A DNA stretch of 64,000 nt, taken from NCBI RefSeq assembly GCF_014652435.1, contig NZ_BMYU01000003.1:248001-312000 (forward strand), read 5' to 3'. Positions within the stretch are counted from its first letter, which is position 1, and every line of letters starts with the position of its first letter. The notes under the pieces are model-generated. The model saw only the letters and a program-made list of their open reading frames with translations. It did not search any database and was not told the origin of the DNA. This stretch comes from Cognatundibacterium squillarum (GTDB lineage: Bacteria; Pseudomonadota; Gammaproteobacteria; Burkholderiales; Burkholderiaceae_D). Positions 22,437 to 61,907 of the stretch are shown piece after piece. Position numbers and translations under genes: made by a program.

Positions 22437-22771
22437 CCGTCTGCCAGCCAGCAACTGCCGGCCGACTATGCAGCTATCCGCATTTGCCAATTACGGAGAG
22501 CCGGACTTTCTGCCGACGACCGCCGGATCGCTATGCCTGAATCCGCATTCATGGCTTTTTTAGCGCTGAAAATGGCCATGTATCCTGCCGGCAGGGCTTG
22601 TCCTGCCACTGGCGAAACAGAGGCATGCTTTACGTCAGGACTGCCCCGTAAAGGCACGCAAGGGCCCGCTGAGCGCTTTTTCGGATGCTGGCAAGGGGTT
22701 TAGCGGTGAACAGCATGCACAAGCTGAAAAGCGGCGCTCATCGTCTGATCATGGATCTGCCGGTAAAAAGC
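22437..22771. other. Intergenic region holding repeat copy A
   Basis: No convincing gene. It contains copy A of the dispersed repeat (22491-22696), apparently interrupted. A 52-codon frame starting at 22551 exists within the repeat but has no ribosome-binding site and is probably spurious. Confidence 0.55.
22491..22696 (+). repeat. Dispersed intergenic repeat, copy A (interrupted)
   Basis: The core CCGGACTTTCTGCCGACGAC, then CGCCGGATCGCTATGC and CCGCATT, matches copies B-E. Copy A is then interrupted: GCTTTTT occurs at 22554-22560 and again at 22675-22681, and the sequence after the second copy (TCGGATGCTGGCAAGG) rejoins the alignment with copy C. Confidence 0.75.
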
Positions 22772-22800
22772 AAAACGCCCGGCAGACACCGGGCGTTTTC
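22770..22800 (-). terminator. Rho-independent terminator of the TonB-C protein gene
   Basis: AAAACGCCCGG and CCGGGCGTTTT pair around CAGACA; on the minus strand the stem is followed by TTTTGCTTTTT. Confidence 0.88.
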
Positions 22801-22852
22801 ACTGATCCAGCAACATCGCGCCTGAAACCCCGGCGCAATGCCATCCACCGGA

Positions 22853-23197
22853 TTACTCCAGTTTCCAGACGAAATCGACTTTCGTCCACATTTGCTCTGC
22901 TTTGCCGTCTTTGGTACCCGGCTTGAACTTACACTGGCTCAGTGCCTGCAGCGCTGCTTTGTCCAGACTCTTGGAGCCGCTGCTTTTATCAATGCGTGAT
23001 TCAGACACTTTACCGTCTGTACCCACCAGAAAACCCATGGTGACGGTACCGGTTTCTTCATTCATCAGCGCCGCTTTCGGATATTTCGGCGGATCGCAGG
23101 ATTTGTTATCCATTACAGGCGACGTTTCCGCTGCCATCACAGCACCTGCAGAGACCAGTAATAAAGCTGAGAGTATGGAAGAGAGCATCGGTTTCAT
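22853..23197 (-). CDS. Exported stand-alone TonB C-terminal domain protein
   Basis: A 114-residue secreted protein: a signal peptide (LSSILSALLLVSAGAVMAA) followed by one TonB C-terminal-like domain. The pattern PPKYPKAALMNEETGTVTMGFLVGTDGKVSESRIDKSSG then LDKAALQALSQCKFKPG is the classical TonB-C beta-alpha-beta arrangement. There is no proline-rich linker and no membrane anchor, so it is not a complete energy transducer. Two cysteines (CDPPKYP and LSQCKF) could form a disulfide in the periplasm. It is monocistronic, with its own terminator, downstream of a chemoreceptor. Its role is unknown. Confidence 0.87.
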   Translation of the reverse strand: MKPMLSSILSALLLVSAGAVMAAETSPVMDNKSCDPPKYPKAALMNEETGTVTMGFLVGTDGKVSESRIDKSSGSKSLDKAALQALSQCKFKPGTKDGKAEQMWTKVDFVWKLE

Positions 23198-23247
23198 GAT
23201 TCAGTTCTTTTCGTTAGCCATCAATCAAGTCAGGAAGGATTTACAAC

Positions 23248-24981
23248 TCAGAACTCTTCCCAGTCATCATCTGCCTGCGCCTTCTTTGCAACCGGCTTTG
23301 CTGCCGGCAGAGACCTTACAGTATCCGCCTTTGCTTTCGGGCGAACAACTGGTTCAGCACGGCGTGTTGCGCTTGCAACAGATGGTGCAGGTGTACGGAT
23401 CTGATGATCAGCACCGCCCAGTTTAAACACGCTGACGACTTTTGCCAGCTCTGCCGCCTGATCCTGCAGACTTTGCGCCGCCGCCGCCGCTTCTTCCACC
23501 AGCGCCGCATTTTGCTGAGTCACACCATCCATCTCGATGATGGCGTGGTTGACCTGCTCGATACCCACGCTTTGTTCCTGACTTGCTGCGGTAATTTCCG
23601 CGATGATGTCAGTCACATGTTTAACGCTGCTGACCACCTGATCAATCGTCACACCGGCCTGTCCTACCAGTTTAGTACCGACTTCAACTTTCTCAACCGA
23701 TGTATCAATCAGTGTTTTAATTTCTTTCGCTGCAGCTGCACTGCGTTGCGCCAGACTGCGGACTTCTGCCGCCACCACCGCAAATCCGCGCCCCTGCTCA
23801 CCGGCGCGTGCTGCCTCTACCGCTGCATTCAGCGCCAGAATATTGGTCTGGAACGCGATACCGTCAATCACGCTGATAATATCAACAATCTTTTTAGAGG
23901 ATTCGTTGATCGAGCCCATGGTTTCAACCACTTCCGCAACGACCACGCCACCCTGACGTGCCACTTCAGAAGCCGATGCCGCCAGCTGATTCGCTTCACG
24001 TGCATTGTCCGCATTCTGTTTCACAGTGGAAGTCAGTTCGCGCATGGAAGAAGTTGTTTTTTCCAGCGAGCTTGCCTGTTGCTCAGTACGGGAAGACAAA
24101 TCCAGGTTACCAGTCGCGATTTCACTGGAAGCGGTTGCGATGGTATCCGTACCCATACGCACCTGCGCCACAATATTCACCAGGCTGTCGCGCATTTTCT
24201 TCATTTCGAAAATCAGGCTGTCCTGATCATTGTGCGCAACGTCAATCGGCGCTGTCAGTTCACCGGCAGCAATCTGGCCAGCGATTTGCGCTGCATATTC
24301 AGGCTCACCACCCAGCTGTTTCAGCAGGCTGCGGCTGATCACATAGGCCGCCACTGCACCACCGGCAACTGCCAGCGCGCCGAGAATCAGCATCATGATC
24401 GTCGCGGATTTGAATTCAGCACCGGCTTGTTCCGCCACGCTGGTATTCAGTTTATCTTCCAGATCCACCAGTTCGTCCAGAGAATCCAGCCATGCTTGCT
24501 GCACAGGACGCAGTTTTTTAATCAGGGTAATGGTCGCCACTTCAGGGTTATTGGCCAGACCCAGTTCCTGCGCTTTTGCCGGCAGGGATGCTGCTGCGGA
24601 TTCTTTTTCCTTCAGCTTATCCAGCAGGGCTTTCTTCTCCGGATGAGAAGCACCTTCATTCTGGATCAGCTTCACCAGCTTATCGTTCGCTTCTGCGTAT
24701 TTTTTGGACTGATCTGCAATTTTTGCCAAATCTTTTTCCATGTCAGCAGCGTCGTTCAGCAAAGTCAGGTTACGCAGCGAAACCATGCGGTCGTAAACAA
24801 TCGCGCGCATATCAATGGCCAGACGTGTTTCAACGTTACTGACGTTGACAATGCGCTCCAGTCGTCCCTGAATCTGGGACATACGCATAATGCCAACCAC
24901 TGTCACTGCTACCAGAAAAGCTAATACCAGAGCAAATCCAAGCCCCAGACGCTTACTCACCGTCATATTCGAGAAATTCAT
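23248..24981 (-). CDS. Methyl-accepting chemotaxis protein with four-helix-bundle sensor and CheR tether
   Basis: A 577-residue chemoreceptor. TM1 is at ~11-31 ([21 protein letters not shown]). A periplasmic 4HB_MCP-type helical domain spans ~32-190, and TM2 ~193-213 ([22 protein letters not shown]). HAMP follows ([20 protein letters not shown]), then the signalling domain with the tip [21 protein letters not shown]. After a flexible Ala/Lys/Arg-rich linker the protein ends DDDWEEF, a CheR/CheB-binding pentapeptide of the xWxxF type. It can therefore recruit adaptation enzymes, unlike the other receptor in this window. It shares the [16 protein letters not shown] entry common in Burkholderiales receptors. 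Ligand unknown. Confidence 0.96.
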
Positions 24982-25475
24982 GTACTTGACTGTTATGAAA
25001 TAAGTTAAAACGAAATCCCGCTACCAAAGCATAGTTTTGCTTACTATTGCTTTACGTAAAACGCTATACCTGCAGAATAGGTTTTATATTGCGCTACCGG
25101 GAACAAGCAGAAATTGACAGGTACAGGGTGGAAATATACTTTAATTTTGCTCAACAGCAACGGCTTTTTTCGGAAATTTCAACTGCTTTTACTTCTTTTC
25201 ACAGAATAATGGCTGGTCACTTTTTCCCGCAGCGCATCATTAATAAAAAGAGATTTCCAAAACACAACAAAACATTTCGCTGTCTGTGGGTACTTCACGA
25301 AATTAAATTCGAAAGGCAGCCGCATTTTTCTCTGCGCAAACGGTTCAACCTGTTATTGATAGCCTCTATCATATATTTGATATAGCACAATCTTTTCCGG
25401 ATGTTAGTCTTCCGCTATGAATCGTGCATTTCTGTCAGCAGTGCGCATACACAACACATTTCATCCGGAGTTGAG
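24982..25475. other. AT-rich divergent intergenic region upstream of xdhA
   Basis: 494 bases without a convincing gene. An open frame at 25047-25385 has no ribosome-binding site and unusual composition. The region carries the divergent promoters of the chemoreceptor and the purine operon, and a cluster of TGATAG/CTATCA half-sites near 25357-25384. Confidence 0.6.
25357..25384. promoter_or_regulatory. Overlapping inverted repeats upstream of the purine operon
   Basis: TGATAG-CCT-CTATCA (25357-25371) is a perfect inverted repeat, and the right arm is also paired with a further TGATATAG at 25377-25384, giving three half-sites in 28 bases. It ends about 91 bases before the xdhA start. It could be the operator of a purine-responsive regulator; no regulator gene is adjacent. 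Confidence 0.45.
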
Positions 25476-26957
25476 ATGTCCAGCCCGATACGGTTTTTCC
25501 ATGCCAGCCAATTACACACCGTCTCTGACCAGCCGGTAACCCGCACTTTACTGCAATACCTCAGAGAGGATGCGCATTGCACATCTGTTAAGGAAGGGTG
25601 CGCGGAAGGCGATTGCGGTGCCTGCACCGTGGTTGTTGGCGAACTCTGCAACGGAAAGTTGCAAATGCGCTCTGCCAATGCCTGCCTGCTGCCGCTTGCA
25701 TCACTGCACGGCAAAGCAGTATTCACTGCTGATCAGTTAGGCGATGAACAGAAGCCGCACCCCATACAGGAAGCGATGGTGAGTTGTCACGGATCACAAT
25801 GCGGATTCTGCACGCCGGGCTTTATGATGTCGATGTGGAGCGTTTATCTGCAGCGTGACAGCCGTGGCGGCCCCGCGTCACGCGAAGAAATCCAGCAAGC
25901 CTTATCAGGTAATTTGTGCCGTTGTACCGGATACCGCCCTATCGTCGATGCAATGCAGGTCGCAGAACAGGCACCGGAACATCCGTTTGACCGGCAGGCA
26001 CTTTCTACACAGCTCGCTGGTATCGCCGATACCGGTGACTTCCATTACAGCGCACAGAAGCAACACTGGCATGCACCGCGGACGATGGATGCCCTGCTCC
26101 GCTTGCGCCATGCGCTGCCGAATGCAACGCTGGTCGCCGGTTCCACCGATATCGGCCTGTGGATTACCAAGCAATTCCGCCCGCTGGGTGACTTCATCTC
26201 TGTTGCAAAGGTCGAAGCCCTGCATCACTGCGAGCGTACCGATGAAGGAATTTTCATCGGTGCTGCAGTCTCTGTCGAGCAAGCCTATCGCGCATGTCTG
26301 AAGGAGTATCCGGAGCTGTCAGAGCTGGCAGACCGCTTTGCTTCCCTGCCCGTCAGAAATACCGGCACGCTCGGTGGCAATATCGCGAACGGTTCGCCCA
26401 TCGGTGACTCCATGCCCTGGCTGATTGCACTTGGCGCCCGTATCGAACTCGCAAGTGTCAGCGGAACACGGCAAATTCCGCTGGAAGCGTTTTATACCGG
26501 CTACCGGCAAAAAGATTTGCAGGCGAATGAAGTCGTCGGCCGTATCATTATTCCGTTACGTACTTCCGCGAGCTTGTTCCGGGTCTGGAAAATATCGAAG
26601 CGGATTGATCAGGATATTTCTGCAGTTTGCATTGCCTTCTCCGCGACACTGAACGACGGACGTTTGCAACATGTCCGGATCGGTGCCGGTGGCGTTGCGG
26701 CGATTCCTGCACGGGCACGACAAACCGAAGCTGTGCTCGAAGGCAGTATGTGGGATCAGGCTGCGCTGGAAAAAGCATGTGCTGCAATCGCAGCAGAATT
26801 CACACCGCTATCCGACATGCGAGCCAGCGCAGCGTATCGTCGTCAGTTATGCGTTAACTTGCTGAAACGGTTCTGGCTGGAAACAAGTCCGGCTTCGGAT
26901 GCAAAAGACAAGGCGCTGTCGCTGACTGCTTATGCCGCTGCAGGAGACCAACAATGA
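25476..26957 (+). CDS. xdhA: Xanthine dehydrogenase small subunit (2Fe-2S and FAD domains)
   Basis: Electron-transfer subunit of xanthine dehydrogenase, which oxidises hypoxanthine and xanthine to urate. It has 493 residues. Residues ~1-160 bind two 2Fe-2S clusters: Cys42, Cys47, Cys50 and Cys70 (EGCAEGDCGACTV), then Cys109, Cys112, Cys148 and Cys150 (SQCGFCTPG, GNLCRCTGYRP). Residues ~200-370 are the FAD domain (LVAGSTDIGLW, GTLGGNIANGSPIGDS), followed by the CO-dehydrogenase flavoprotein C-terminal domain. The ATG at 25476 follows GGAGTTGAG. Its TGA stop overlaps the xdhB ATG by four bases (ATGA). First gene of a purine-degradation operon. Confidence 0.97.
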   Translation: MSSPIRFFHASQLHTVSDQPVTRTLLQYLREDAHCTSVKEGCAEGDCGACTVVVGELCNGKLQMRSANACLLPLASLHGKAVFTADQLGDEQKPHPIQEAMVSCHGSQCGFCTPGFMMSMWSVYLQRDSRGGPASREEIQQALSGNLCRCTGYRPIVDAMQVAEQAPEHPFDRQALSTQLAGIADTGDFHYSAQKQHWHAPRTMDALLRLRHALPNATLVAGSTDIGLWITKQFRPLGDFISVAKVEALHHCERTDEGIFIGAAVSVEQAYRACLKEYPELSELADRFASLPVRNTGTLGGNIANGSPIGDSMPWLIALGARIELASVSGTRQIPLEAFYTGYRQKDLQANEVVGRIIIPLRTSASLFRVWKISKRIDQDISAVCIAFSATLNDGRLQHVRIGAGGVAAIPARARQTEAVLEGSMWDQAALEKACAAIAAEFTPLSDMRASAAYRRQLCVNLLKRFWLETSPASDAKDKALSLTAYAAAGDQQ

Positions 26958-29272
26958 ACAACATCATTGATACCAGCCCTGTTACGCAGCGTGTGCATGA
27001 ATCGGCATGGGCACACGTCACAGGAAAAGCCTTGTACACGGATGATCTTCCGGAATTACAGGGAACTTTACACGCTGCACTGGGCTTATCCCCTTATGCC
27101 CACGCGCGCATTCTGAAAACCGATCTCAGCAAAGTCAAAGCGAGTACTGGCGTTATCACTGTTTTTACGGCATCCGATATCCCCGGCGACAATCAGTGCG
27201 GCCCGATTATCAAAGACGATCCAATACTGGCTGATGGTTTACTGCAGTACGTGGGGCAGCCGGTATTTATTGTTGTGGCTGACAGCCACGAACATGCGCG
27301 GAAAGCGGCAAGGCTGGCAGAGTACGAGGTCGAAATGCTGCCGGCACAATTGCACCCCAGAGCGGCGGCAGCGGATGGTCAGCTGGTGATTCCTCCGATG
27401 CATCTTCGCCGCGGGGATGCGCAGAGCCGGCTTGCTGCAGCACCGCACCGTATTCAGGGGCAATGGCAGGTCGGTGGTCAGGAACAGTTTTATCTGGAAG
27501 GTCAGATCGCGAGTGCCATACCCGGCGAAGGCAATACGATGCTGGTGTATTGTTCAACGCAGCATCCGAGCGAGATGCAACATATCGTCGCGCATGCACT
27601 GCATATTGGCAGCCATCAGGTACAAGTCGTGTGCCGTCGCATGGGTGGCGGATTCGGCGGAAAGGAATCACAGTCCGCATTGTGGGCAGCCTGCGCTGCG
27701 ATTGCGGCATCCCATCTCAGACGACCGGTTAAACTGCGTGCCGACCGTGACGACGATATGCAAGTCACCGGTAAACGTCATGATTTCTGTTACGACTACG
27801 ATGCCGGCTTTGATGCAGACGGGCGTTTACTGGGATTGTCGGTACAGATGATCAGTCGCGCCGGTTTTTCCGCAGATCTGTCCGGCCCGGTTGCTACCAG
27901 AGCCGTTTGCCATCTGGACAACGCCTATTTTCTTTCCGATGTCGATGTGCGTGCGCTTTGCGCAAAAACCAATACGCAATCCAACACAGCATTCCGTGGC
28001 TTCGGCGGCCCTCAGGGTGCACTCCTGATCGAGTATCTGATGGATGATATTGCGCGCCATCTGGGTAAAGATCCGTATGAAGTTCGCCGCAGCAATTTTT
28101 ATGATCCTGATCCGGCAAACGAAAGGTATCTGACCCATTATGGCCAGCCGGTTGCCGATAATGTTCTGCAACCACTGTCAGAACAGCTGCATCAGGAGGC
28201 AAACTATGCTGCACGGCGTGAAGCCATTCTTGCCTTTAATCGCCAGAGTCCGGTGCTGAAAAAAGGACTGGCACTGACACCGGTAAAATTCGGCATCGCA
28301 TTCAATGTCACCCACCTGAATCAGGCGGGTGGCCTGGTGCACATCTATCTGGACGGCACGGTACTGGTCAATCACGGCGGTACCGAAATGGGCCAGGGTA
28401 TCCATACCAAAATTCTGCAGGTAGTCGCACGCGAACTGGGCGTCAGCGCAGACAAAGTGCGCATCGCAGCAACCGATACCAGCAAAATCGCCAATACATC
28501 CGCAACCGCTGCTTCAACGGGAACAGACCTGAATGGCAAAGCCGTACAGGATGCCGCAATACAATTGCGTCAGCGCCTGTCAGCGCTGGCATCGCGCTTA
28601 TCCGGTGCTCCGGAGACTGCGGTTCATTTTTCGGATAATCAGGTTACCGCCGGTGACTGGACAATGCCGTTCGCCGAACTGATTCAGAAAGCATACTTGC
28701 AGCGCATACAACTCTGGTCAGACGGTTTTTATGCGACGCCGGGCATCCACTGGAATGCGGCTGCGATGCAAGGCAGTCCGTTTCAGTATTTTGCTTACGG
28801 CGCGGCACTGTCAGAAGTCATCGTCGATACGCTGACAGGCGAGTGGAAGCTGCTGGCGACAGACCTGCTGTACGACGCTGGTCAGTCGATCAACCCTGCC
28901 ATCGACCGAGGGCAGGTCGAAGGCGGCTTTATTCAGGGCATGGGATGGCTGACAATGGAAGAGCTGGTCTGGAACAAAGAAGGTAAGCTCAGCACACATG
29001 CGCCTTCTACCTATAAAATTCCGGCTGTTTCCGATTGCCCGGCCCATTTCAATACCCGTCTGTTCAGTAATGTGAACGCTGCGGATACGATTTACCGTTC
29101 AAAAGCAGTCGGTGAACCTCCGTTGCTGCTGGCCTTCTCCGTATTCTTCGCAATCCGGGATGCTGTCGCGGCGATTCACTCTGATTTCAAAGGACATGTT
29201 CCGCTGGCGGCACCGGCAACGCCGGAAGCCATTCTGAACGCGGTTCAAACGATGCAATCCACACTTAAATAA
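26954..29272 (+). CDS. xdhB: Xanthine dehydrogenase molybdopterin subunit
   Basis: Molybdenum-cofactor subunit where purine hydroxylation occurs, 772 residues, close to bacterial XdhB length. Visible hallmarks: VTGKALYTDDLPE at the start; the molybdopterin motifs CRRMGGGFGGKESQS, NTAFRGFGGPQGALL and GGTEMGQGIHTKILQ; and the catalytic glutamate in VGEPPLLLAFSVFFAIRDAV near the C-terminus. It overlaps xdhA by four bases and guaD by one base, indicating tight translational coupling. No xdhC (the chaperone that inserts sulfurated cofactor) is found between or after, though it is commonly part of this operon. Confidence 0.97.
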   Translation: MNNIIDTSPVTQRVHESAWAHVTGKALYTDDLPELQGTLHAALGLSPYAHARILKTDLSKVKASTGVITVFTASDIPGDNQCGPIIKDDPILADGLLQYVGQPVFIVVADSHEHARKAARLAEYEVEMLPAQLHPRAAAADGQLVIPPMHLRRGDAQSRLAAAPHRIQGQWQVGGQEQFYLEGQIASAIPGEGNTMLVYCSTQHPSEMQHIVAHALHIGSHQVQVVCRRMGGGFGGKESQSALWAACAAIAASHLRRPVKLRADRDDDMQVTGKRHDFCYDYDAGFDADGRLLGLSVQMISRAGFSADLSGPVATRAVCHLDNAYFLSDVDVRALCAKTNTQSNTAFRGFGGPQGALLIEYLMDDIARHLGKDPYEVRRSNFYDPDPANERYLTHYGQPVADNVLQPLSEQLHQEANYAARREAILAFNRQSPVLKKGLALTPVKFGIAFNVTHLNQAGGLVHIYLDGTVLVNHGGTEMGQGIHTKILQVVARELGVSADKVRIAATDTSKIANTSATAASTGTDLNGKAVQDAAIQLRQRLSALASRLSGAPETAVHFSDNQVTAGDWTMPFAELIQKAYLQRIQLWSDGFYATPGIHWNAAAMQGSPFQYFAYGAALSEVIVDTLTGEWKLLATDLLYDAGQSINPAIDRGQVEGGFIQGMGWLTMEELVWNKEGKLSTHAPSTYKIPAVSDCPAHFNTRLFSNVNAADTIYRSKAVGEPPLLLAFSVFFAIRDAVAAIHSDFKGHVPLAAPATPEAILNAVQTMQSTLK

Positions 29273-37399: not shown

Positions 37400-37690
37400 A
37401 ACGATCGGCGCAATTATTTTTATTTGTTTTTTAATATGATGGCAAATAAGTCATCTCCGGTAATACAGTGCAAATGTTAAAAAAACAAACGCCCTGAAAT
37501 TTCAAATGTGGCAAGCAAGATCGGTAAATGCATATCTTCAGAGGATCAGCAGGCATATTCACGGAAATGCCGCCAAAAAATTTATATTTCCGCAACTACC
37601 TTCCACAGCAGATTGGCATGCCGGTATTTCCTGAGGTTCGACGAGAGCACACGCATGTACCTGACCACATGATTCACTGTGCAATCTTCG

Positions 37691-37780
37691 TCATTTAAGG
37701 AAAACGGAAGTCCGGACTTTCTGCCGTGGAGCGGCTGGTTGCTATGCTAAATGCCGCATTTGAGGCATTTTCGGGCAGTT
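37691..37780 (+). repeat. Dispersed intergenic repeat, copy B
   Basis: GGAAGTCCGGACTTTCTGCC, then GCTATGCTAAATGCCGCATT and GAGGCATTTTCGGGC. It aligns with copies A, C, D and E. The palindrome AAGTCCGGACTT is complete here. Confidence 0.75.
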
Positions 37781-41665: not shown

Positions 41666-42676
41666 TCAGTTCGCCGCAGCCGCCGCCTGACGGCGGCGGT
41701 ATTGTGCCGGGCTGAGCCCGTGTACACGCTGAAAAGCGCGGCGGAAGCTGCGCTCGTCCGCATAGCCGAGCCGCTCTGCCAGCAGCTCACTGCTTTCTCC
41801 GGCCAGCAATGCGGCGCGGGCCTTCTGCATTCTCAGTTGCTCCGTCTGCACTGCAAAGCGCACGCCTTCACGCGCTAAAGCACGGTGAAATGCACGCTCA
41901 CTCATGTGCACGGACTCTGCTGCCGCTGCCGCAGTCATCCCATCCCAGTGCTCACTGCTGATACGCTGCAACAGCGTCGGCTTTTGTACGCTGTCCAGTT
42001 CCCGTATCGCCATTTCACAGCGCTGCTTCGCCTGTGCAGCAGGTGCCGGCGCATTTTTCCGGATTTCCTGTGCGGCAATGCCGGCCGGTAGAACGATACG
42101 GTTTTCATCGGCACCGAAAACAATACGGCAGCCAAACAGCTGTTCCAGCGCCGATTGCTCACTCAGTCCGCGACAACGCAACTCCAGCCGCTGCGCAGTC
42201 ACTGCCGCACCGCCAAGCTGGCGTGCTGTCATCAGTGCTGTCGTCAGATGATCGAGCGCCAGAAAATCTTCCAGCTCCGGATCAGCGAACAAGGCTTCAG
42301 CACGGATGATCAGATGTTGTCCGCTGAGTCCGGCATGCAATCCGGTCATGGCACCGGCTACGCGCTGAAACTGCATTGCAAACTGCAGGGCTTCGCCCAG
42401 CGTTGCCTGCGCCAGCAAACCTTCGGCCAGATAACTCAGCTGCGGCAAAGCTTTCCTGCTGCCGGACCACAGCGCCAGCCCCCGTCCGTAGCGGGCTTGC
42501 AGCATAGTAAGCACTTCCCTCGCCTGCTGATAGCTGATACGTGCCGTACCGTTTCCGGAGTCCGCCGGTAACTGAAACTGCCAGCCCTGTTCACGCGACA
42601 AAGCCTGCAAGCCGGCAAAGGCATGCACGGGAAATACCGGATCACTGACAGAAAGCCACGGAGCAAGGCTGGGCAT
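41666..42676 (-). CDS. AraC family transcriptional regulator
   Basis: A 336-residue regulator. The N-terminal ~215 residues resemble the Arabinose_bd/OruR-type ligand-sensing domain (GLQALSREQGWQFQLPADSG, LAQATLGEALQFAMQFQRVAGAM). The C-terminal ~100 residues hold two helix-turn-helix units (TAAAAAESVHMSERAFHRALAREGVRF and SSELLAERLGYADERSFRRAFQRVHGLSPAQYRRR). It is divergent from the GMC oxidoreductase gene with 120 bases between starts, so it is the likely regulator of that gene. No ribosome-binding site is evident at the ATG. Confidence 0.92.
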   Translation of the reverse strand: MPSLAPWLSVSDPVFPVHAFAGLQALSREQGWQFQLPADSGNGTARISYQQAREVLTMLQARYGRGLALWSGSRKALPQLSYLAEGLLAQATLGEALQFAMQFQRVAGAMTGLHAGLSGQHLIIRAEALFADPELEDFLALDHLTTALMTARQLGGAAVTAQRLELRCRGLSEQSALEQLFGCRIVFGADENRIVLPAGIAAQEIRKNAPAPAAQAKQRCEMAIRELDSVQKPTLLQRISSEHWDGMTAAAAAESVHMSERAFHRALAREGVRFAVQTEQLRMQKARAALLAGESSELLAERLGYADERSFRRAFQRVHGLSPAQYRRRQAAAAAN

Positions 42677-50235: not shown

Positions 50236-50274
50236 GCCGGACGACGGATGCCGGCTGTGCAGAAATGCGCATCC

Positions 50275-50370
50275 GGCATTTCCTGAGGCCCGGACTTTCT
50301 GCCGACGACCGCCGGATCGCTGTGCTGAACACCGCATTTGGGGTGTTTTCGGAGGCTGGCAGGCAGTTGC
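50275..50370 (+). repeat. Dispersed intergenic repeat, copy C
   Basis: CCCGGACTTTCTGCCGACGA, then CCGCCGGATCGCTGTGCTGA and CACCGCATTTGGGGTGTTTT. It is nearly identical to the first part of copy A and lies between the M16 stop codon and its terminator. A GGATGC/GCATCC hairpin (50246-50275) sits just before it. Confidence 0.78.
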
Positions 50371-50375
50371 AGGAC

Positions 50376-50412
50376 ATAAAAAAACCGCGATGTCATTATC
50401 GCGGTTTTTTTA
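50376..50412. terminator. Bidirectional terminator between M16 gene and YcbK-like gene
   Basis: ACCGCGAT and ATCGCGGT form an 8 bp stem around GTCATT, with A-run before and T-run after, so it can work on both strands. Confidence 0.92.
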
Positions 50413-53605: not shown

Positions 53606-54012
53606 CAGCGCATGCCGCGTGCGCGGTAGCTGTGTGCCAGCACTAAACGGGTACTGGCGATCAGGCTGTTCAAGCCCATCAGCAAAGGCATCAGCTGATC
53701 ACCGGCCACCAGCCAGATTTGTCCCGCCGGGGCATTCTGACGCGTAACGGCAGTCAGTACCGGTTGCACCCATGCGGCTTCCGGTGTCACATCCAGCAGG
53801 ATATCGCCGTCGCCATTGGTATGCAGATACAGTTCGCCGCCGTGCACCAGCGTAAAGCAAACACCCTGCCCTTCCGATTGTCGTCCTTCCAGCGCCTGCT
53901 GCAATTCACGGTTATACAAATCCAGCCAGGCTTCGGCTTCGTTCCAGTCTTCCAGCGGCTGCCAGCGGATATCAGGGAATACTTTTTGTTGCAGGTTTTC
54001 AGGCAAAGTCAT
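53602..54012 (-). CDS. Uncharacterised 136-residue cytoplasmic protein
   Basis: I do not recognise the family. It has no signal or membrane segment and is acidic, with a WLDLYNRELQQAL helix followed by a beta-rich part (GQGVCFTLVHGGELYLHTNGDGDILLDV) and a C-terminal helical stretch (LMPLLMGLNSLIASTRLVLAHSYRA). The ATG comes one base after the stop of the TraB/GumN gene, so it is translationally coupled as the third gene of the rep operon. Its stop overlaps the stop of the convergent binding-protein gene by four bases. Confidence 0.78.
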   Translation of the reverse strand: MTLPENLQQKVFPDIRWQPLEDWNEAEAWLDLYNRELQQALEGRQSEGQGVCFTLVHGGELYLHTNGDGDILLDVTPEAAWVQPVLTAVTRQNAPAGQIWLVAGDQLMPLLMGLNSLIASTRLVLAHSYRARGMRC

Positions 54013-54013
54013 C

Positions 54014-54910: not shown

Positions 54911-56955
54911 CAGTTTTCCTTTCCTTCAGGACGGGGTTGCGCCAGCAGCGCTTTCAGATTGGCAAGCCGCTGTTGCGGACTCAGCACTTCACTTTCTTTC
55001 GGGATGGCATCGCCTTCATTCAGGCGCATTTCTTTGATGAAGCGCGAAGGATCACAATTGATGGTAGTACCGGCGCGCTTACGCCGCTTGCACCAGCTGA
55101 CATGCAAAGAACGCTGCGCACGGGTAATGCCGACATACATCAGCCTGCGTTCTTCTTCGATACGCGCCGCCAGTTTTTCCACCGGCTCATCTTCATCGCC
55201 TTTATGCGGCAGTATGCCTTCTTCCACACCGACTAAAAACACATGCGGATATTCCAGCCCTTTGGAGGCATGCAGCGTCGACATGCGCACTGCGTCCAGC
55301 TCTTCATCTTTACCGTCCAGCATGGTCATCAGCGCCACCATCTGGGTCAGATCCAGCAGACTGCGGTGATCTTCATCGCCGTCACGTCCACCGCTTCCCT
55401 TGGTTTTCAGCCACTGTGTGAAATCCAGTACGTTCTGCCATTTGTTTTGCGCCGCGCGGTCATCGCCGTTATCGTACAGATGCGCTTCGTAATCAATCGC
55501 TTCCAGCATCTGATCCAGCAATTCACCGGCATGACCTTCGCGGTGCGCATGCGCTTCGATACGGTTGATAAATTCACAGAATTCGCGCAAAGGCCGCAAC
55601 TGACGTTCATTCAGCTTCGCTTCCAGCCCGCCTTTCATAGCAGCAGCGAACAGCGAGCACTGCCATTGCCCGGCAAATTCACCGAGCACTTCCAGCGTGG
55701 CTTGTCCGACACCGCGTTTCGGCGTGGTAATCGCACGGATGAACGCAGGATCATCATCTTCATTGGCAATCAGACGCAGATAAGCAATGATGTCTTTGAT
55801 TTCAGCGCGGTCAAAAAAACTCTGTCCGCCGGAAATCGTGTAAGGAATACGCTCACGGCGCAGCGCCTGTTCTATCACCCGCGCCTGATGATTGCCGCGA
55901 TACAGAATCGCGTAATCAGAAAAATTCGCACGGCGTTCAAATTTATGTGCGGACAACAGCATCGCGATGGTTTCCGCTTCTGCTTCATCATCATGCATGG
56001 ACAAGACTTTGATCGGATCGCCGAGACCGTGTTCTGACCACAGTGATTTTTCAAACAGTTTCGGGTTATTGCCGATGACTGCATTTGCCGCCTGCAGAAT
56101 GCGCGTGGTGGAACGGTAATTCTGTTCCAGTTTGATGATGCGCAGGTCGGGAAAATCCACCTGCAGGGTTTTCAGGTTTTCGATGGTCGCGCCGCGCCAC
56201 GCGTAAATCGCCTGATCATCGTCGCCAACGGCGGTGAACATCGGTTTTTTACCGATGCCGGTGACCAGCAGTTTCACCAGTTCATACTGGCAGGTATTGG
56301 TGTCCTGATATTCATCGACCAGCAGATAACGCAGACGGCGCTGCCATTTATCGCGCACCGCTTCATTGTGGCGGAACAGTTCCACCGGCAGCCGGATCAG
56401 ATCATCAAAATCCACCGCCTGATACGCCGCCAGCGTCGCCACATAGCTGCGGTAGATACGGGCCGCGCTGTCATCGTCCTGACTGGTCGCTTCGCGCAGT
56501 GCGCGTTCCGGATCAATCATCGCGTTTTTCCACAGCGAAATCTGATTCTGGATGCCGCGTATCACTTGCTTATCGGTGGTGAATGCCAGATCCTGCACCA
56601 GCGAAAAACAGTCATCGCTCGCCATAATCGAAAAGCGGTCTTTCAGACCGAGTGCCTGCGCTTCCTGCCGCAAAATTTTCACGCCCAGCGAGTGAAACGT
56701 GGACACAGTTAACTGCTTGGCCTGACGCGGCTCCGCCAGCAGTTTCGCCACCCTTTCCTGCATTTCGCGCGCGGCTTTATTGGTGAAGGTCAGCGCCGCA
56801 ATATTGCGCGCATCGTAACCGTGCTTTTCGATCAGATCAGCGATTTTCTGCGTGATCACCCGCGTTTTACCCGAACCGGCGCCAGCCAGCACCAGGCAGG
56901 GGCCATCCATATACTGTACTGCTTCGCGTTGCGGGGGATTGAGTCCGTGTGACAT
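54910..56955 (-). CDS. rep: ATP-dependent DNA helicase Rep
   Basis: A superfamily 1A 3'-5' helicase that helps replication forks past obstacles, 681 residues. Motifs in order: Q/I motif GLNPPQREAV; Walker A GAGSGKT with Lys30; Ia ALTFTNKAAREM; II VDEYQDTN; III GDDDQAIYAWRGA; IV QNYRST; V MSTLHASKGLE; VI YVGITRAQRSL. The N-terminus and length fit Rep rather than UvrD. The ATG at 56955 has GAGAG upstream; an in-frame TTG six codons earlier is less likely. First gene of a three-gene overlapping unit with TraB/GumN and an unknown protein. Confidence 0.96.
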   Translation of the reverse strand: MSHGLNPPQREAVQYMDGPCLVLAGAGSGKTRVITQKIADLIEKHGYDARNIAALTFTNKAAREMQERVAKLLAEPRQAKQLTVSTFHSLGVKILRQEAQALGLKDRFSIMASDDCFSLVQDLAFTTDKQVIRGIQNQISLWKNAMIDPERALREATSQDDDSAARIYRSYVATLAAYQAVDFDDLIRLPVELFRHNEAVRDKWQRRLRYLLVDEYQDTNTCQYELVKLLVTGIGKKPMFTAVGDDDQAIYAWRGATIENLKTLQVDFPDLRIIKLEQNYRSTTRILQAANAVIGNNPKLFEKSLWSEHGLGDPIKVLSMHDDEAEAETIAMLLSAHKFERRANFSDYAILYRGNHQARVIEQALRRERIPYTISGGQSFFDRAEIKDIIAYLRLIANEDDDPAFIRAITTPKRGVGQATLEVLGEFAGQWQCSLFAAAMKGGLEAKLNERQLRPLREFCEFINRIEAHAHREGHAGELLDQMLEAIDYEAHLYDNGDDRAAQNKWQNVLDFTQWLKTKGSGGRDGDEDHRSLLDLTQMVALMTMLDGKDEELDAVRMSTLHASKGLEYPHVFLVGVEEGILPHKGDEDEPVEKLAARIEEERRLMYVGITRAQRSLHVSWCKRRKRAGTTINCDPSRFIKEMRLNEGDAIPKESEVLSPQQRLANLKALLAQPRPEGKEN

Positions 56956-57076
56956 GCGTTTTCTCTCTGACAAGCGGCCTATTCTAGCCCATCCTCTGCG
57001 TTTCTCTGCAAAGCATTACAGCCGGCGGGAACTTGGCTGCGATCACAGGGACTAATGCAGCAATAAAGGAGACACC

Positions 57077-58540
57077 ATGACCCGCACCCCGTTCACCCGC
57101 CGCCGTCTGTTGCAGAGCCTGAGCGCCGGCCTCGTACTCAGCCCGCTGGCCAGCCTGTCCGCGCTGGCACAAAAACCGACGCCGCCTGCCCCGCCCAGCC
57201 TGCGCGGCTTGTTCACAACTGAAGAAATGCAGACAGCGCACAAACTGCGCGATCTGGCCCTGCGCGATAACCGCAGCTATGAAATGCTGGAACGTCTGAC
57301 CACCGAAGTCGGTGCGCGTCTGGCCGGCAGTGAAGCGGATTTACGGGCGGTGAACTGGGCGGTTGCCTTCATGCAGAGTCTGAAGCTGGATAAAGTCTGG
57401 AAAGAACCGGTGCAGTATCCGGTCTGGGAACGCATCAGCGAAAGCGCCAGTGTCATCAGCCCGTTCCCGCACAAGTTGCAGATCACTGCGCTCGGGCACA
57501 GCATTTCCACGCCGGAACAAGGCATACAGGCGGAAATCCTGCGCGTTGCCGATCTGGCGGCGCTGAAAGCTTTGCCTGCCGGTGCAGCGCAGGGCAAGAT
57601 CGTGTTTATCGACCATAAGCTGCGCAAATCGGCGGAATACGGTGATGTGGCTTCCGGCCGTTCACGCGGCGCCTCTGAAGCGGCCCGCAAAGGTGCTGTG
57701 GCGCTGGTTATCCGTTCGGTCGGCACCGACAGCCACCGCCTGCCGCATACCGGCGTCATGCACTACGACGATGGCGCGCCGCAAATTCCGGCGGCAGCCA
57801 TGTCGAATCCGGATGCCGATTTGCTGAACCGCATGCTGCAGCGCGGCCAGCCGGTGAAACTGGATCTGCGCCTGCAAACCCGCAGTGCACCGGACTTTAC
57901 TTCTTACAATGTGATCGGCGAATGGAGCGGTACCGAATTACCGGATGAGTATGTGCTGATCGGCGGCCATCTGGATTCCTGGGACCCAGGCACCGGCGCG
58001 CTGGATGACGGTGCCGGTTGCATGATTACCGCCGGCGCACTGGATTGCCTGATACGGCAAGGCTTGCGTCCGCGCCGCAGTATCCGTCTGGTGTTTTATG
58101 CCAACGAAGAACAGGGCTTGCTCGGCGGCAAGGCTTACCACACGGCGCATCAACAGGAAATCAGCCGGATTCAGGCAGCATCGGAAGCGGATTCCGGTCA
58201 GGGACCGGTCAAAAGGCTGGATTCCCGCGTGCGTCCGGAAGCACTGGGTATCGTGCGGCAAATGCAGGAAGTGCTGGCACCGCTGGGCGTTGCTGCCGGT
58301 GGCAATCAGGCGCATCCCGGGCCGGACATGGGCGTGCTGCACGATGCCGGCGCCGCGAGCTTCGGTCTGAGTATGCAGGCCGATGACTATTTCGATTACC
58401 ACCACACCGCCGACGATACTTTCGACAAAGTCGAACCGGCGCGTATCCGCCAGTCCTGCGCTGCGTACGCGGTATTTGCATGGATGGCAGCGCAATCACC
58501 GCTGCATTTCGGTTCCGGCCCGGCACTGAAGAAAAGCTGA
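57077..58540 (+). CDS. Tat-exported M28 family zinc peptidase with PA-type insert
   Basis: A 487-residue secreted peptidase with a twin-arginine signal (PFTRRRLLQSLSAGLVLSPLASLSALA). The di-zinc site is His298 (GGHLDSWDPG), Asp310 (ALDDGAG), catalytic Glu344 with Glu345 (ANEEQGLLGG), Asp372 (EADSGQG) and His443 (YHHTADDTFDKV). A PA-like segment spans ~130-270 (AQGKIVFIDHKL, GAVALVIRSVG). It resembles plasma-glutamate-carboxypeptidase-type M28 enzymes. The ATG at 57077 follows AAAGGAGACACC, one of the best ribosome-binding sites in the window. It is divergent from rep, and differs from the Sec-exported M28 peptidase at 1533. Confidence 0.95.
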   Translation: MTRTPFTRRRLLQSLSAGLVLSPLASLSALAQKPTPPAPPSLRGLFTTEEMQTAHKLRDLALRDNRSYEMLERLTTEVGARLAGSEADLRAVNWAVAFMQSLKLDKVWKEPVQYPVWERISESASVISPFPHKLQITALGHSISTPEQGIQAEILRVADLAALKALPAGAAQGKIVFIDHKLRKSAEYGDVASGRSRGASEAARKGAVALVIRSVGTDSHRLPHTGVMHYDDGAPQIPAAAMSNPDADLLNRMLQRGQPVKLDLRLQTRSAPDFTSYNVIGEWSGTELPDEYVLIGGHLDSWDPGTGALDDGAGCMITAGALDCLIRQGLRPRRSIRLVFYANEEQGLLGGKAYHTAHQQEISRIQAASEADSGQGPVKRLDSRVRPEALGIVRQMQEVLAPLGVAAGGNQAHPGPDMGVLHDAGAASFGLSMQADDYFDYHHTADDTFDKVEPARIRQSCAAYAVFAWMAAQSPLHFGSGPALKKS

Positions 58541-58582
58541 ACTGCGCAGACGGCAGCCAACAGAGTAAACTAGCGTCTTTAC

Positions 58583-58605
58583 GGGTGCCGCGCTCAGGCG
58601 CACCC
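58583..58605 (+). promoter_or_regulatory. Hairpin in the leader of the DUF1857-like gene
   Basis: GGGTGcCGC-gctcag-GCG-CACCC sits between the M28 stop (58540) and the ATG at 58624. With no T-run it is not a typical terminator; a role in the mRNA leader is possible. Confidence 0.35.
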
Positions 58606-58623
58606 GCACTCTGAAAGGCTTTT

Positions 58624-59109
58624 ATGAAATTCGAACATCTGGTCGCCATTAACGACCTCAGCAATCCTGCGATTCCGGTCATCAGCCGCGCCGAACTGTG
58701 GCGCGGTCTGGTGCTGCGTGCGGAAATGCCGAAACTGTTTATTCCGTATCTGGATGATGCACTGATCGAAGACCGCACCGAAGTCAGCATGCAGCGCCGT
58801 CTGCGTTACGGCGAACTGGTGGTCAGCGATACCGTCACGCTGACGCATCAGCAGCATGTGCATTACGATGTCCCGGCACAGGGCGAAATTCCGCCATCCA
58901 CCATGCGCATGACCATTGAAGAACCGCAGCCACTGGCACTGTTTGTGCGCTTTGTGTACGACGACCATTTGCCGGACAGCGATGATGCGGAACAGAAAAT
59001 GATGAATGATTACCGTCGTTCCGCGTATCAGGCAGCGGATGTCGATACGGTATCGCAGATTCGCCAGCTGGCGGAAAGCGGTCAGTTAGACGGTCATTTC
59101 AACGGTTAA
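58624..59109 (+). CDS. DUF1857-like (SRPBCC fold) protein
   Basis: A 161-residue cytoplasmic protein beginning MKFEHLVAINDLSNPAIPVISRAELWRGLVLRAEMPKLF, which matches the N-terminus of the DUF1857/AtaL-like branch of SRPBCC proteins (hydrophobic ligand-binding helix-grip fold). The rest alternates beta strands (VSMQRRLRYGELVVSDTVTL, STMRMTIEEPQPLALFVRFVY) and ends with a C-terminal helix (YQAADVDTVSQIRQLAESG). Function in bacteria is unknown. It is preceded by a purine run GAAAGG and a leader hairpin, and followed by three hairpins before the bactofilin-like gene. Confidence 0.82.
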   Translation: MKFEHLVAINDLSNPAIPVISRAELWRGLVLRAEMPKLFIPYLDDALIEDRTEVSMQRRLRYGELVVSDTVTLTHQQHVHYDVPAQGEIPPSTMRMTIEEPQPLALFVRFVYDDHLPDSDDAEQKMMNDYRRSAYQAADVDTVSQIRQLAESGQLDGHFNG

Positions 59110-59112
59110 GCC

Positions 59113-59181
59113 TGCGCGTTTCAGCGCAGCGATTTGCGGGTTTGCCTGCGTAAACCCGTGCCAGAGCGCAAGCGCTTCTGG
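59113..59181 (+). promoter_or_regulatory. Three consecutive inverted repeats before the bactofilin-like gene
   Basis: Three hairpins sit end to end: TGCGC-N6-GCGCA (59113-59128), CGGGTTT-N8-AAACCCG (59137-59158) and CCAGAGCGC-AA-GCGCTTCTGG (59161-59181, one bulge). GATAAT at 59182-59187 directly follows and could be a -10 element. Confidence 0.5.
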
Positions 59182-59220
59182 GATAATGCACACACTTCCC
59201 CCCACAATCACAGGTGAGAT

Positions 59221-60375
59221 ATGGCACGCGCCTCTTCCAGTACCAAAACAGCAAAACCGGCCGCCACCGCGAAAACCGGTAAAACCGTGAAAGCCGCCGC
59301 ACCACGCAAAACCAAAGCCGTGGCATTGCCTGCGGCGCCGGAACCGTTTCAGGCCGGCAGCTTAAAGCGTAAACAATTTGCCACCACCGGTGACGCGCAC
59401 ATCCTCGGCGATGTGACCATCGCTACACAGTTAGTGGTCGGTGGCGATTTGCTGATTGACGGTGATCTGATCGCAGAAGAAGTGTTTTGCTTAGGCAAAC
59501 TGACCGTCACCGGCGACATTCAGGTGCAATCGCTGTACATCGGTCAGGCGCTGGATGCCGGTGGCCATGTGGATGTGGAATTTCTGCTGAAAACCGGTTG
59601 CCAGCCGGAATGGATGGCGAATCTGCTGGCAGCCGAAGACAGTGATGACAGCGCGGAACACTTGCTGGAAAAACTGGTGCATCCGGCGATTCTGGCGCGT
59701 CACAGCCATGCCGATGTGATCGGCGGTTTCGGCGATATTCAGTGTCTCGGTTATCTGACCTGCGGCGATCTGGATTGTCAGGGCAGCGTGCAGCTGGATG
59801 AAGATCTGGAAGCCGGTGAAGTGCTGTTTATCGGTGGCCATCTGGCGGCCAGCGCCGTGCATGTGCGTGGTGACTGCAATGTACAGGGCGAACTGTTTTC
59901 GGAATCTGATCTGGATGTGACAGGCAGTCTGTATGCCGCTGAACTGCAGGCTCAGGGCAATATCCGCGCCGGCAGCATCGGCACTCAGGGCGATGTGATT
60001 GCCTGGGGTTATATCCGCGCAGAAAACGAACTGAGCAGCCTGTTCGGTGAAATCCATGCCGGTCGCTGGATCGGCACCCGTGGCAATCTGTACGCCGCTA
60101 AATACATCAAAGCCGGTGAAGCAGTCGTGGCGGAAAAAGGCATGACCTGCGGCAGCGATTACGGCATTTTCGCGGGCTCCATCCTGCCGCGTTCCAAATG
60201 GGAAAAACAAGGCTTTATCTCCGCCAGCAGCAAACCGAAGCTGGTACTGTCCGGCGCATGGGTGGAAAGCAAGAAACTGCGTCAGTTAGATACTGCCGAG
60301 AAAAAACGTGCGCCGGAACTGGACTGGGAAATCGCCCGTCAGGCCCGTCACGATATGCTGCAACAGGCGGACTAA
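59221..60375 (+). CDS. Bactofilin-like beta-helix (polymer-forming) protein
   Basis: A 384-residue protein with no signal peptide. The first ~40 residues are Lys/Ala/Thr-rich and histone-like (SSTKTAKPAATAKTGKTVKA). Residues ~55-120 and ~165-330 are beta-helix rungs of the bactofilin kind, built from short strands with GD turns (GDVTIATQLVVGGDLLIDGD, GKLTVTGDIQVQS, GDIQCLGYLTCGDLDCQGSV, GGHLAASAVHVRGDCNVQGEL, GNIRAGSIGTQGDVIAWGYI). A helical insert (GCQPEWMANLLAAEDSDDSAEH) separates the two. A charged C-terminus follows. It probably self-assembles or acts as a scaffold. The ATG at 59221 follows AGGTGAGAT. It is considerably longer than typical bactofilins (~120-200 residues). Confidence 0.8.
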   Translation: MARASSSTKTAKPAATAKTGKTVKAAAPRKTKAVALPAAPEPFQAGSLKRKQFATTGDAHILGDVTIATQLVVGGDLLIDGDLIAEEVFCLGKLTVTGDIQVQSLYIGQALDAGGHVDVEFLLKTGCQPEWMANLLAAEDSDDSAEHLLEKLVHPAILARHSHADVIGGFGDIQCLGYLTCGDLDCQGSVQLDEDLEAGEVLFIGGHLAASAVHVRGDCNVQGELFSESDLDVTGSLYAAELQAQGNIRAGSIGTQGDVIAWGYIRAENELSSLFGEIHAGRWIGTRGNLYAAKYIKAGEAVVAEKGMTCGSDYGIFAGSILPRSKWEKQGFISASSKPKLVLSGAWVESKKLRQLDTAEKKRAPELDWEIARQARHDMLQQAD

Positions 60376-60450
60376 GGCCGCGCCGGCTGGTGGCTGAGCA
60401 GCCTTCAGGCTGATTCACAGCAAATCGCTACCCGCCGGAACTGCAGGACA

Positions 60451-60488
60451 ACAACACCGTTTGCACCCTGTGCAGCGGTGTTTTTTTA
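60451..60488 (+). terminator. Rho-independent terminator of the bactofilin-like gene
   Basis: AACACCG and CGGTGTT with an inner TGCAC-CCT-GTGCA stem (60453-60482) followed by TTTTTTTATT. Confidence 0.9.
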
Positions 60489-60785
60489 TTGGCAGCCTCT
60501 CAGACTGACAGAGACATCCCTCGCAACACTGTTTTTTGCCTGAAAATGCCTGAAATGCGGACTTGCGCACAGCCATGCGGCGCTCGCCGGCAGAAAGTCC
60601 GGACTTCCGGAAATGACGGATGACGATCTTGGCACAGACTCAGGTACGGGCTGTTGTGTTTTCCCTCAGATAATCAGGCTGCCTGCTATCGCCTGTGAAC
60701 AGAAGCACACTTACACACAGGCAAACAACGCCATCAGCATGACAGGCTGACGACCGCAGCAAACCGCCGCGCTATTCAGGGGAAC
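60489..60785. other. Intergenic region holding repeat copy D
   Basis: About 300 bases between the terminator and the end of the next minus-strand gene. It carries repeat copy D at 60537-60616; nothing else is recognised. Confidence 0.55.
60537..60616 (-). repeat. Dispersed intergenic repeat, copy D (inverted orientation)
   Basis: Read on the minus strand: GGAAGTCCGGACTTTCTGCC, then GGCTGTGCGCAAGTCCGCAT and CAGGCATTTTCAGGC. It shares the complete AAGTCCGGACTT palindrome with copy B. Confidence 0.75.
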
Positions 60786-61334
60786 TCAGCGCAGCCGGTT
60801 GGCGCGGATCGCTTTGCGCAGACGCGGGTTGTACAGCAAGGCGGGACAATGCCAGACCGCATCGCCGTTTTGCCAGAAGCGCAGTTCCGGCTGGTCTGCG
60901 GGTAACACAGCCCACAGGCTGTTATCCTGCAAAATTAGCAGCTCACCATTCGGTGCAATGTTTTGCAGCCAGTAACCGGGACGGCAGTCTGCCGGTGTTT
61001 CGGCATCGGCCGATGGCCGGTAACCAAGCGGTTTGCTGTCCCAGATACGGCAGCGCTGGTCTTCATTCGGCAGCACGATTTCCGCACCGGGCGTCAGAAA
61101 CGGGCCCGGCGACTGAATCATGACCGGACGACCGCGATACCGCCACAGCCCCGCGCAACCGGTACCGTGCTCAATCTGAAACGCTTCATGATTCTGGCGC
61201 ACGATCACCAGCTTGTTTTCCCCCTGCGCCGCACTGTTCAGCGTGACCCATTCTTCACCGGCCTGCGCAGAACCGGCCAGCATCAGCAGCGCAAGAAAAA
61301 GCACGATTAAAGAATGCAGGCTGATAGCGGGCAT
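60786..61334 (-). CDS. Uncharacterised exported protein
   Basis: I do not recognise a family. It has 182 residues with a clear signal peptide (SLIVLFLALLMLAGSAQAGEE). The mature part is rich in Trp, Pro and Arg and has five cysteines (GTGCAGLWRYRG, DQRCRIWDSK, PADCRPGYW, VWHCPALL and one near the end of the pattern cannot be confirmed), so disulfides are plausible in the periplasm. Alternating strands such as NKLVIVRQNHEAFQIE and GELLILQDNSLWAVL suggest a beta-rich fold. It is monocistronic; the region upstream contains repeat copy E. Confidence 0.75.
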   Translation of the reverse strand: MPAISLHSLIVLFLALLMLAGSAQAGEEWVTLNSAAQGENKLVIVRQNHEAFQIEHGTGCAGLWRYRGRPVMIQSPGPFLTPGAEIVLPNEDQRCRIWDSKPLGYRPSADAETPADCRPGYWLQNIAPNGELLILQDNSLWAVLPADQPELRFWQNGDAVWHCPALLYNPRLRKAIRANRLR

Positions 61335-61907
61335 AGTGGGTCAGCGTGAAAAGTATGCGGAAAGGTAAAGCAACGGTGCCATGCTAACGCAGTGCAGACC
61401 GCGACGGTTGACCATTTCCCGCATCGCCGACAAACACTGAATCTCTGCAACAGTTCACCACCACCAACCCGCAAGACCTGAAAACACCGGAAGTCGCCTG
61501 CAAACCACCCAAAATGCGGCATTCCGCACAGTTTTTCAGTGACGTCCGCAGAAACACTGGCGCTCAGGGCAGGTGCTCTGACGAGAACAGCACAGTGGGT
61601 GGCTGACTGATGAGGCGGTGACCACCATCAGCAAACATGGGCTGTGATCGTGTCTGTCAGTGAAACCCTGGGATGTAACTGCCATTGGCTGCAGCTTGCA
61701 AGCCTGGGTGTGCGAGCCTGATTAATTTGAAAATTTTTTTTCTTTATTTTGCGGTTGACGGAAAATCAACGTATCATTTTTGCGAAAATTCGGGAACTTT
61801 CTGCGGTTTTCTTTCGTCTGTAGCAGGAAATCAGCGTAAAGTACCTGACATGGCATACGGGCAACAGGTTTCTGCCCTGGCCTTTGCATTCTGCTCCGGA
61901 GACAAGA
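61335..61907. other. Intergenic region upstream of the S46 peptidase, with repeat copy E
   Basis: About 570 bases without a convincing gene. Copy E of the dispersed repeat is at 61496-61556. The stretch 61725-61800 is very AT-rich and contains TTGACG at about 61754, a possible -35 element of the S46 gene. Confidence 0.5.
61496..61556 (-). repeat. Dispersed intergenic repeat, diverged copy E (inverted orientation)
   Basis: Read on the minus strand: TTTCTGCGGACGTC, then CTGTGCGGAATGCCGCATTT and TGGGTGGTTTGCAGGC. It aligns with copy C (CTGTGCTGAACACCGCATTT) but is more diverged and lacks the AAGTCCGG part. Confidence 0.55.

Follow-up and report, generated by a model that had tools for sequence, protein, structure and literature searches.

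The stretch analysed here (the window) comprises 64,000 nt of the Cognatundibacterium squillarum genome, with positions counted from its first letter, and carries five copies, A to E, of a short repeat that lies between genes. The element is about 100-130 bp long and consists, in order, of a site that we call R1, an A/T tract, a 15-base core, a second site, R2, and a tail of A/T tracts in phase with the helix. An original prediction, made from the letters of the window, had proposed five dispersed copies of an unnamed family; all five are present where it placed them and are matched by a model of the element, and Rfam gives no match in the window at gathering scores. The core, CCGGACTTTCTGCCG, is exact in copies A-D. 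The copies and their surroundings, with copy C resolved into its parts, are:

22375-22852: convergent gap of about 478 bp that holds copy A
22465-22591, plus strand: copy A, with R1, core (22501-22515, exact), R2 and phased tail; model match 22465-22563, 86.4 bits
37676-37802, plus strand: copy B, with core at 37712-37726 and a diverged middle block; model match 37676-37776, 74.1 bits; its gap is scored tandem, though the left neighbour is a dubious open reading frame (ORF) of 45 codons
50255-50380, plus strand: copy C, near-consensus; model match 50255-50352, 93.9 bits; a stop codon (50235) stands on one side and a terminator-like hairpin, seen by eye at about 50385-50412, on the other
50256-50272, plus strand: R1 site of copy C, of the TRTGCAnnnnTCSKCAT type, an imperfect dyad (from the column profile)
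50278-50281, plus strand: upstream A/T tract of copy C (columns -12 to -9)
50290-50304, plus strand: core of copy C, CCGGACTTTCTGCCG
50321-50337, plus strand: R2 site of copy C, a direct repeat of R1 at +65 bp (from the column profile)
50336-50380, plus strand: tail of copy C, with A/T tracts each 10 bp and the peak of predicted curvature
60512-60638, minus strand: copy D, with core at 60588-60602, in a convergent gap (60376-60785); model match 60538-60638, 83.8 bits
61502-61596, minus strand: copy E, a degenerate full-length copy in a divergent gap, with four core mismatches and with R2 and tail retained; 33.1 bits, E=2.4e-9

When up to three mismatches are allowed, the core is found 10 times in the window against 2.0 ± 1.4 expected, and none of 100 shuffles reaches 10; the remaining six of the ten matches have three mismatches each. 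Terminators lie close to some copies, as judged by eye and uncounted. The head that the copies had been predicted to share exists, as CCGGACTTTCTGCCG, while the "AAGT" given as its label occurs in B and D only. The blocks noted in the original prediction are likewise real and form the middle of the element, which starts about 36 bp upstream of the head, at R1, and continues beyond them into the phased tail. Copy E, predicted as a diverged inverted copy, is more precisely the degenerate full-length copy listed above.

To describe the element, 95 distinct copies with an exact core, drawn from the window and from 91 loci of the host genome (one of the 91, L031, holds none), were aligned on the core, the first core base being position 0. 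All 95 align without gaps, and a MAFFT alignment of 50 of them gives 104 columns and zero gaps. The element begins sharply at about -36, whereas its 3' end fades. R1 occupies -34 to -18 and has two main forms, TCGTCAT (56/95) and TCCGCAT (35/95); it is followed by the A/T tract at -12 to -9 (A/T in 0.80-0.99 of the 95 copies) and by an A at -4 in every copy. The core occupies 0-14, where the columns are fixed through the selection of copies. A second form of the core, CCAGACTTTCTGCCG, is common: among 29 further rows, comprising 20 model matches with a changed core and nine neighbours (in one of which the core is exact), core position 2 is altered in 19, almost always from G to A. Downstream, ACGACCGCCGGATCG at 15-29 is moderately conserved, and R2 at 31 to 49 (TRTGCnGAAnnCCGCATTT) is a direct repeat of R1 offset by 65 bp. 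R1 and R2 are each imperfect dyads (RTGCrGA-NN-TCyGCAT), with a match over the 95 copies of 0.56 and 0.63 compared with at most 0.33 and 0.42 when slid.

Beyond R2, G/C-rich blocks alternate with A/T-rich blocks. A/T maxima fall at +47.9, 57.5, 68.1, 78.2 and 88.3; two fainter ones follow at 98.2 and 108.3, and the amplitude declines outward. The period is 10.02-10.04 bp over four stretches of the tail in the 95 copies (bootstrap 9.94 to 10.10-10.16), and spectral power at 10.0 is 1.51, compared with a shuffle maximum of 0.33 and a peak of 0.33 in an upstream control; the left side of the element has no 10-bp period. Non-majority bases at A/T positions of the tail comprise 209 T/A swaps, 69 transitions and 72 other transversions, and those at G/C positions 201 G/C swaps, 122 transitions and 48 others. 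T/A and G/C swaps dominate, so the pattern of strong and weak pairs, and with it the shape, is retained while the letters change. A calculation from wedge angles predicts a strongly curved tail, where curvature reaches its maximum of 57.5 degrees per 41 bp, compared with 21.1 ± 1.1 for base shuffles and 28.0 ± 1.5 for dinucleotide shuffles. No clear dyad emerges from the A/T profile (best r=0.52 at +11; standard deviation over centres 0.20), and the RNA fold is unremarkable on both strands (z -0.45 and -0.82 over 48 copies). Mutual information peaks between adjacent columns; some distant pairs reach 0.21-0.22 against 0.175, the largest of 3000 shuffled values, and we attribute these to shared ancestry.

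The host genome (G000; 4,185,104 bases in 20 contigs; genus Undibacterium) was searched on its contigs. The core is found exactly at 169 places, compared with one for a backwards control, and with at most one mismatch at 267, compared with six; the R2 pattern, again with at most one mismatch, is found at 345 places against two for its control. A model search, which was no census, scored 150 of 2926 candidates, all 150 of which match at 80 bits or more. We estimate from these pattern counts that copies number about 270-350. The family is therefore, as had been predicted, dispersed, high in copy number and present in both orientations, with hundreds of copies in addition to the five of the window and a similarity far above chance.

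Few relatives of the element were found outside the host. The exact core occurs in none of 35 congeners and once in each of two among 24 other genomes of the order. Model searches were extended to 42 other genomes of the genus and to 399 genomes of the order, host included, with stricter filters wherever more than 40 genomes were searched. The former found eight diverged copies (34-58 bits) in three genomes (G001, G011 and G062), and the latter, outside the host, only four matches of about 21 bits. No match was found in viral contigs with an exact 18-base pattern, nor in plasmids or phages by blastn with copy C. Six of the eight diverged copies form pairs at one orthologous locus, where their conservation is about equal to that of the flanks and R2 and tail are recognisable; about 1.7-2 kb separates the two members, and an aminotransferase-like gene lies upstream of them (L124, L125 and L126). 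The R2 pattern occurs at 12 places in each of G001, G011 and G062, compared with 6, 4 and 2 for the controls, and since it exceeds the controls, these genomes may hold a few further copies.

Comparison with congeners supports insertion of the element at sites A and C. At site C, five congeners (G033, G012, G029, G027 and G004) have no element between the stop codon and the next gene, and gap C is also shorter in three syntenic congeners. Gap A measures about 478 bp in the host and about 95-122 bp in the syntenic congeners G033, G029 and G012. This gap is some 360 bp longer than in those three congeners, and about 260 bp of it (within 22592-22852) goes beyond the size of one element. At sites B and D, the compared congener stretches differ by more than one insertion.

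The placement of copies follows gene ends. Genes on the sampled loci were called with a custom codon-usage script rather than a standard caller; on these calls, 86 of the 95 copies are intergenic, six lie at sequence edges and three fall inside marginal ORFs, so that the spurious small proteins foreseen in the original prediction are a minor matter. The 86 placed copies occupy 49 convergent, 31 tandem and 6 divergent gaps. Across every sampled gap of 120 bp or more, most of which were fetched for their copy, the element is present in 49/52 convergent, 34/65 tandem and 5/28 divergent gaps (Fisher p 1e-10 for convergent and 4.5e-7 for divergent). Among gaps of this size whose retrieval did not depend on a copy inside them (19 within the window and 48 in locus flanks), it is present in 5 of 8 convergent, 5 of 36 tandem and 0 of 23 divergent gaps, one of the five convergent copies (L082) having been fetched together with its neighbour. 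The scan of gaps used a rough letter score, which gave one likely false site at 42590 and missed copy E; once this degenerate copy is counted, the divergent figure becomes 1/23. Copies thus favour gaps between convergent genes, and for 15 of 51 convergent copies the start lies no more than 30 nt from a stop codon. Spacing on three contigs is roughly random (coefficient of variation 0.86, 1.05 and 0.67), and no clear link to replication polarity emerged when strand counts of exact copies in fifths of those contigs were compared with the GC skew of sampled loci.

Purifying constraint appears to act on the resident copies, judging from a comparison of 123 distinct copies from which the L042 copy, cut by the end of its locus, was excluded, as it was from the 29 further rows. 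Across these copies, 24 fixed columns outside the core are non-consensus at 1.5%, compared with 43.6% for 34 free columns. Among the 20 closest pairs, differences amount to 21.9% at free columns and 0.2% at fixed ones; when the 50 closest pairs or more are taken, the ratio of fixed to free difference is 0.04-0.05. Neutrality would predict either decay of the fixed columns or many near-identical newborn pairs, and only one pair among the 123 copies is near-identical at free columns (0.029). Two neighbouring copies 1.8 kb apart, L147 and L150 (G000:C1, about 649-651 kb), are very alike in R1, core and R2, and both have the CCAGAC form of the core; they are probably this near-identical pair, and a local duplication. 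R1-side and R2-side distances between copies are correlated (Mantel r=0.22; 0 of 2000 permutations), which shows that they share a history of copying, while distances in the tail are uncorrelated (335 and 373 of 2000 permutations).

The original prediction had likened the family to REP (repetitive extragenic palindromic) elements and MITEs (miniature inverted-repeat transposable elements), and this likeness was not supported. REPs are described as palindromes of 20-40 bp, most of them tagged GTAG or CGTC (PMC3733652), and REPINs as paired REPs that form hairpins (PMC3116915). The present element shares with REPs a high intergenic copy number and with MITEs an insertion whose orthologous site is empty (in five congeners at site C and, by gap length, in three at site A). 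It has no long palindrome, its only dyads being the imperfect ones of 16 bp within R1 and R2. GTAG is absent from the column profile, and CGTC occurs only inside the GT form of R1 (56/95, at -22/-21), where it tags no palindrome. Folding of the 48 copies gave no RNA hairpin, and a comparison of seven loci with Rfam, in which E values up to 1 were admitted, placed no match on the element (six matches elsewhere, each below its gathering score). There are no terminal inverted repeats: the best mean identity is 0.46, at an end of +51, which reflects R1 against R2 rather than a terminus, compared with a median of 0.25. A target duplication of 7, 8 or 9 bases was found in 0 of 95 copies (control 1, 0 and 0), though the test has little power, given a blurred 3' end and copies that seem old. 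On the features tested, membership of REP/REPIN fails on palindrome, tag and linkage to a RAYT (REP-associated tyrosine transposase), and membership of the MITEs fails on terminal inverted repeats.

No candidate mobiliser withstood inspection. The host genome holds a single Y1_Tnp (RAYT-like) gene, of 250 aa (L031/L187; G000:C11, about 113.6-114.3 kb), flanked, by eye, by glutamate-synthase-like and chemoreceptor-like genes. No element lies in the 8.5 kb around it (3.5-4.2 kb on each side), and the Y1_Tnp family is present in 41 of 42 genomes of the genus, host included, with or without the element; the RAYT, and with it the linkage to a REP-type transposase that had been suggested as a check, was rejected on both grounds. 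Genes between close pairs of copies (L030, L082, L184, L185 and L186) were also rejected, being ordinary chromosomal proteins as judged by eye without a family scan. An autonomous unit of about 2 kb between the paired copies of three congeners was rejected as well, with no transposase seen by eye among the listed ORFs; those between the paired copies in L124 and L126 we take, by eye, to be Hint/intein-like. A separate inverted pair of 197 nt in the window, 77% alike (11925-12121 and 23687-23883, inside the predicted genes 10431-12392 and 23248-24981), is probably paralogous coding sequence.

The reading that we favour, with about even confidence, is that a non-palindromic element was inserted and its copies have been retained as nucleoprotein sites on double-stranded DNA, as functional analogues of the bacterial interspersed mosaic elements (BIMEs). 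The element would have entered this Undibacterium lineage by insertion, and the resident copies would then have been constrained as DNA. With their dyads 65 bp apart around the core, R1 and R2 would make a plausible platform for a putative dimeric sequence-specific protein, and the A/T tracts each 10 bp past R2 would bend the DNA around that protein or a partner. The anatomy, phasing, number, placement and column-wise constraint of the copies, and the empty sites at A and C, are shown by the data; that a protein binds, that the DNA is bent in vivo and that the host may benefit we infer. The likeliest role would be architectural, since the sites lie at gene ends, above all convergent ones, where positive supercoils collect; GapR, a marker of positive supercoiling, prefers gaps between convergent genes (PMC8360656). 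As is supposed for the BIMEs of Escherichia coli, the element might anchor a wrapping protein that manages supercoiling, and that insulates or terminates between converging units. In a broader version, which we regard as less likely than not, about 270-350 DNA-wrapping sites, each with two dyad operators 65 bp apart and a curved tail phased at 10.0 bp, would have been installed at gene ends, chiefly between convergent genes. They would form a lineage-specific, chromosome-wide architectural grid, defined by sequence, onto which an undescribed wrapping protein would be loaded, encoded either by the host or by a domesticated mobile element.

Several observations weigh against retention as a nucleoprotein site. 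Harmless selfish DNA would be expected to avoid promoters just as much. The fixed and free columns were classified on the same data on which they were compared, and because 95 copies were chosen by their exact core and 20 others by high score, decay is underestimated. Fifteen copies, 5 in the window and 10 in flanks of loci, were found without such choice; 11 of them lie above 65 bits and four score low, namely E (33.1), L023 (40.3), L077 (52.1) and L042 (38.5, cut by the locus end). No equivalent repeat was found in 80 kb each of G033, G029 and G012, in which the commonest intergenic 11-mer occurs in three gaps; since these three close congeners ("close" denoting 82-84% identity at one gene) lack an equivalent over those stretches, any function would be dispensable in the genus. 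The protein that would bind R1 and R2 is itself putative.

The main rival explanation, possible but in our judgement unlikely, is that the repeat is a purely selfish short mobile element, whose R1, core, R2 and bend are recognised by a transposase or recombinase acting in trans and whose copies survive where they are harmless, after stop codons and away from promoters. Insertion relative to congeners at A and C, expansion in only 1 of 43 genomes of the genus, the shared copying history suggested by the R1-side and R2-side distances, and the existence of degenerate copies would all be explained in this way. Against it stand the absence of inverted termini, a 3' end that fades, no linked transposase among the genes considered and, on a weak test, no target duplication. 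It is also at odds with the single near-identical pair among 123 copies, which indicates that few recent births were sampled, yet the fixed columns have not decayed.

Another possibility is that the copies are high-affinity (strong) sites for DNA gyrase, located where positive supercoils build up. The attraction of gyrase is that the element is about 126 bp long (-36 to +90), has a phased GC/AT arm and lies at gene ends and in convergent gaps, that BIME-2 is enriched in gyrase cleavage sites of E. coli (PMC6379681), and that GapR prefers convergent gaps. The E. coli gyrase motif (PMC6379681) is 130 bp long and has, on either side, an arm with a period of 10.75 bp. The present tail has a period of 10.0, and 10.75 falls outside its bootstrap range (9.94-10.16); there is a single periodic arm and no clear dyad in the A/T profile; and the published motif, being degenerate, has far less specificity than R1, core and R2. 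This mismatch is not decisive, since cleavage specificity of gyrase varies between species (PMC12324340). Taken together, we consider gyrase sites improbable.

A transcribed 3'-untranslated RNA element, such as a terminator, a processing site or a small-RNA site, would suit the 15 of 51 convergent copies that begin close to a stop codon, and is nevertheless very improbable and was rejected on folding and column covariation, given the unremarkable fold, the absence of an Rfam match in the window at gathering scores, the adjacency of the strongest column pairs (the weak distant pairs fit shared ancestry), and the T/A swaps and helical phasing of the tail.

Interspersed intergenic repeats are a known kind of bacterial sequence and are usually treated as palindromic, largely selfish DNA; the present family departs from the features of REP/REPIN, and no published description of it was found among the titles and abstract openings of the open-licence literature. 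Its constraint extends to both the letters and the shape of the DNA; it is strictly spaced, and occupies gene-end gaps of one genome without a counterpart in close relatives. If a wrapping protein binds it, the family would provide a natural experiment on supercoiling, transcription insulation and chromosome folding, for which the congeners with empty sites would be the control, and the unit from R1 through core and R2 to tail would be a clean bait with which to recover the protein.

Among known systems, the REP, BIME and REPIN families of E. coli and Pseudomonas are similar in being intergenic, high in copy number, often species-restricted and possibly involved in supercoiling, whereas this element is non-palindromic, strictly spaced, about 100-130 bp long and curved in its tail, without a terminal GTAG/CGTC palindrome or RAYT linkage. 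The E. coli gyrase motif and the strong gyrase sites of Mu and pSC101 resemble it in their length of about 130 bp and their helically phased A/T and G/C arm, but differ from its period of 10.0 rather than 10.75, its single arm, its highly specific R1, core and R2, and its hundreds of homologous copies. Like MITEs and short repeats such as ERIC, BOX, RUP and Correia, the element is short, non-coding, dispersed and apparently inserted; unlike them, it lacks terminal inverted repeats and has a fading, phased 3' end. The uptake signal sequence of Haemophilus influenzae, about 30 bp long and present in about 1,500 copies, also has a fixed core followed by A/T tracts about one helix turn apart; it has arisen by point change, whereas the element described here is one long inserted unit.

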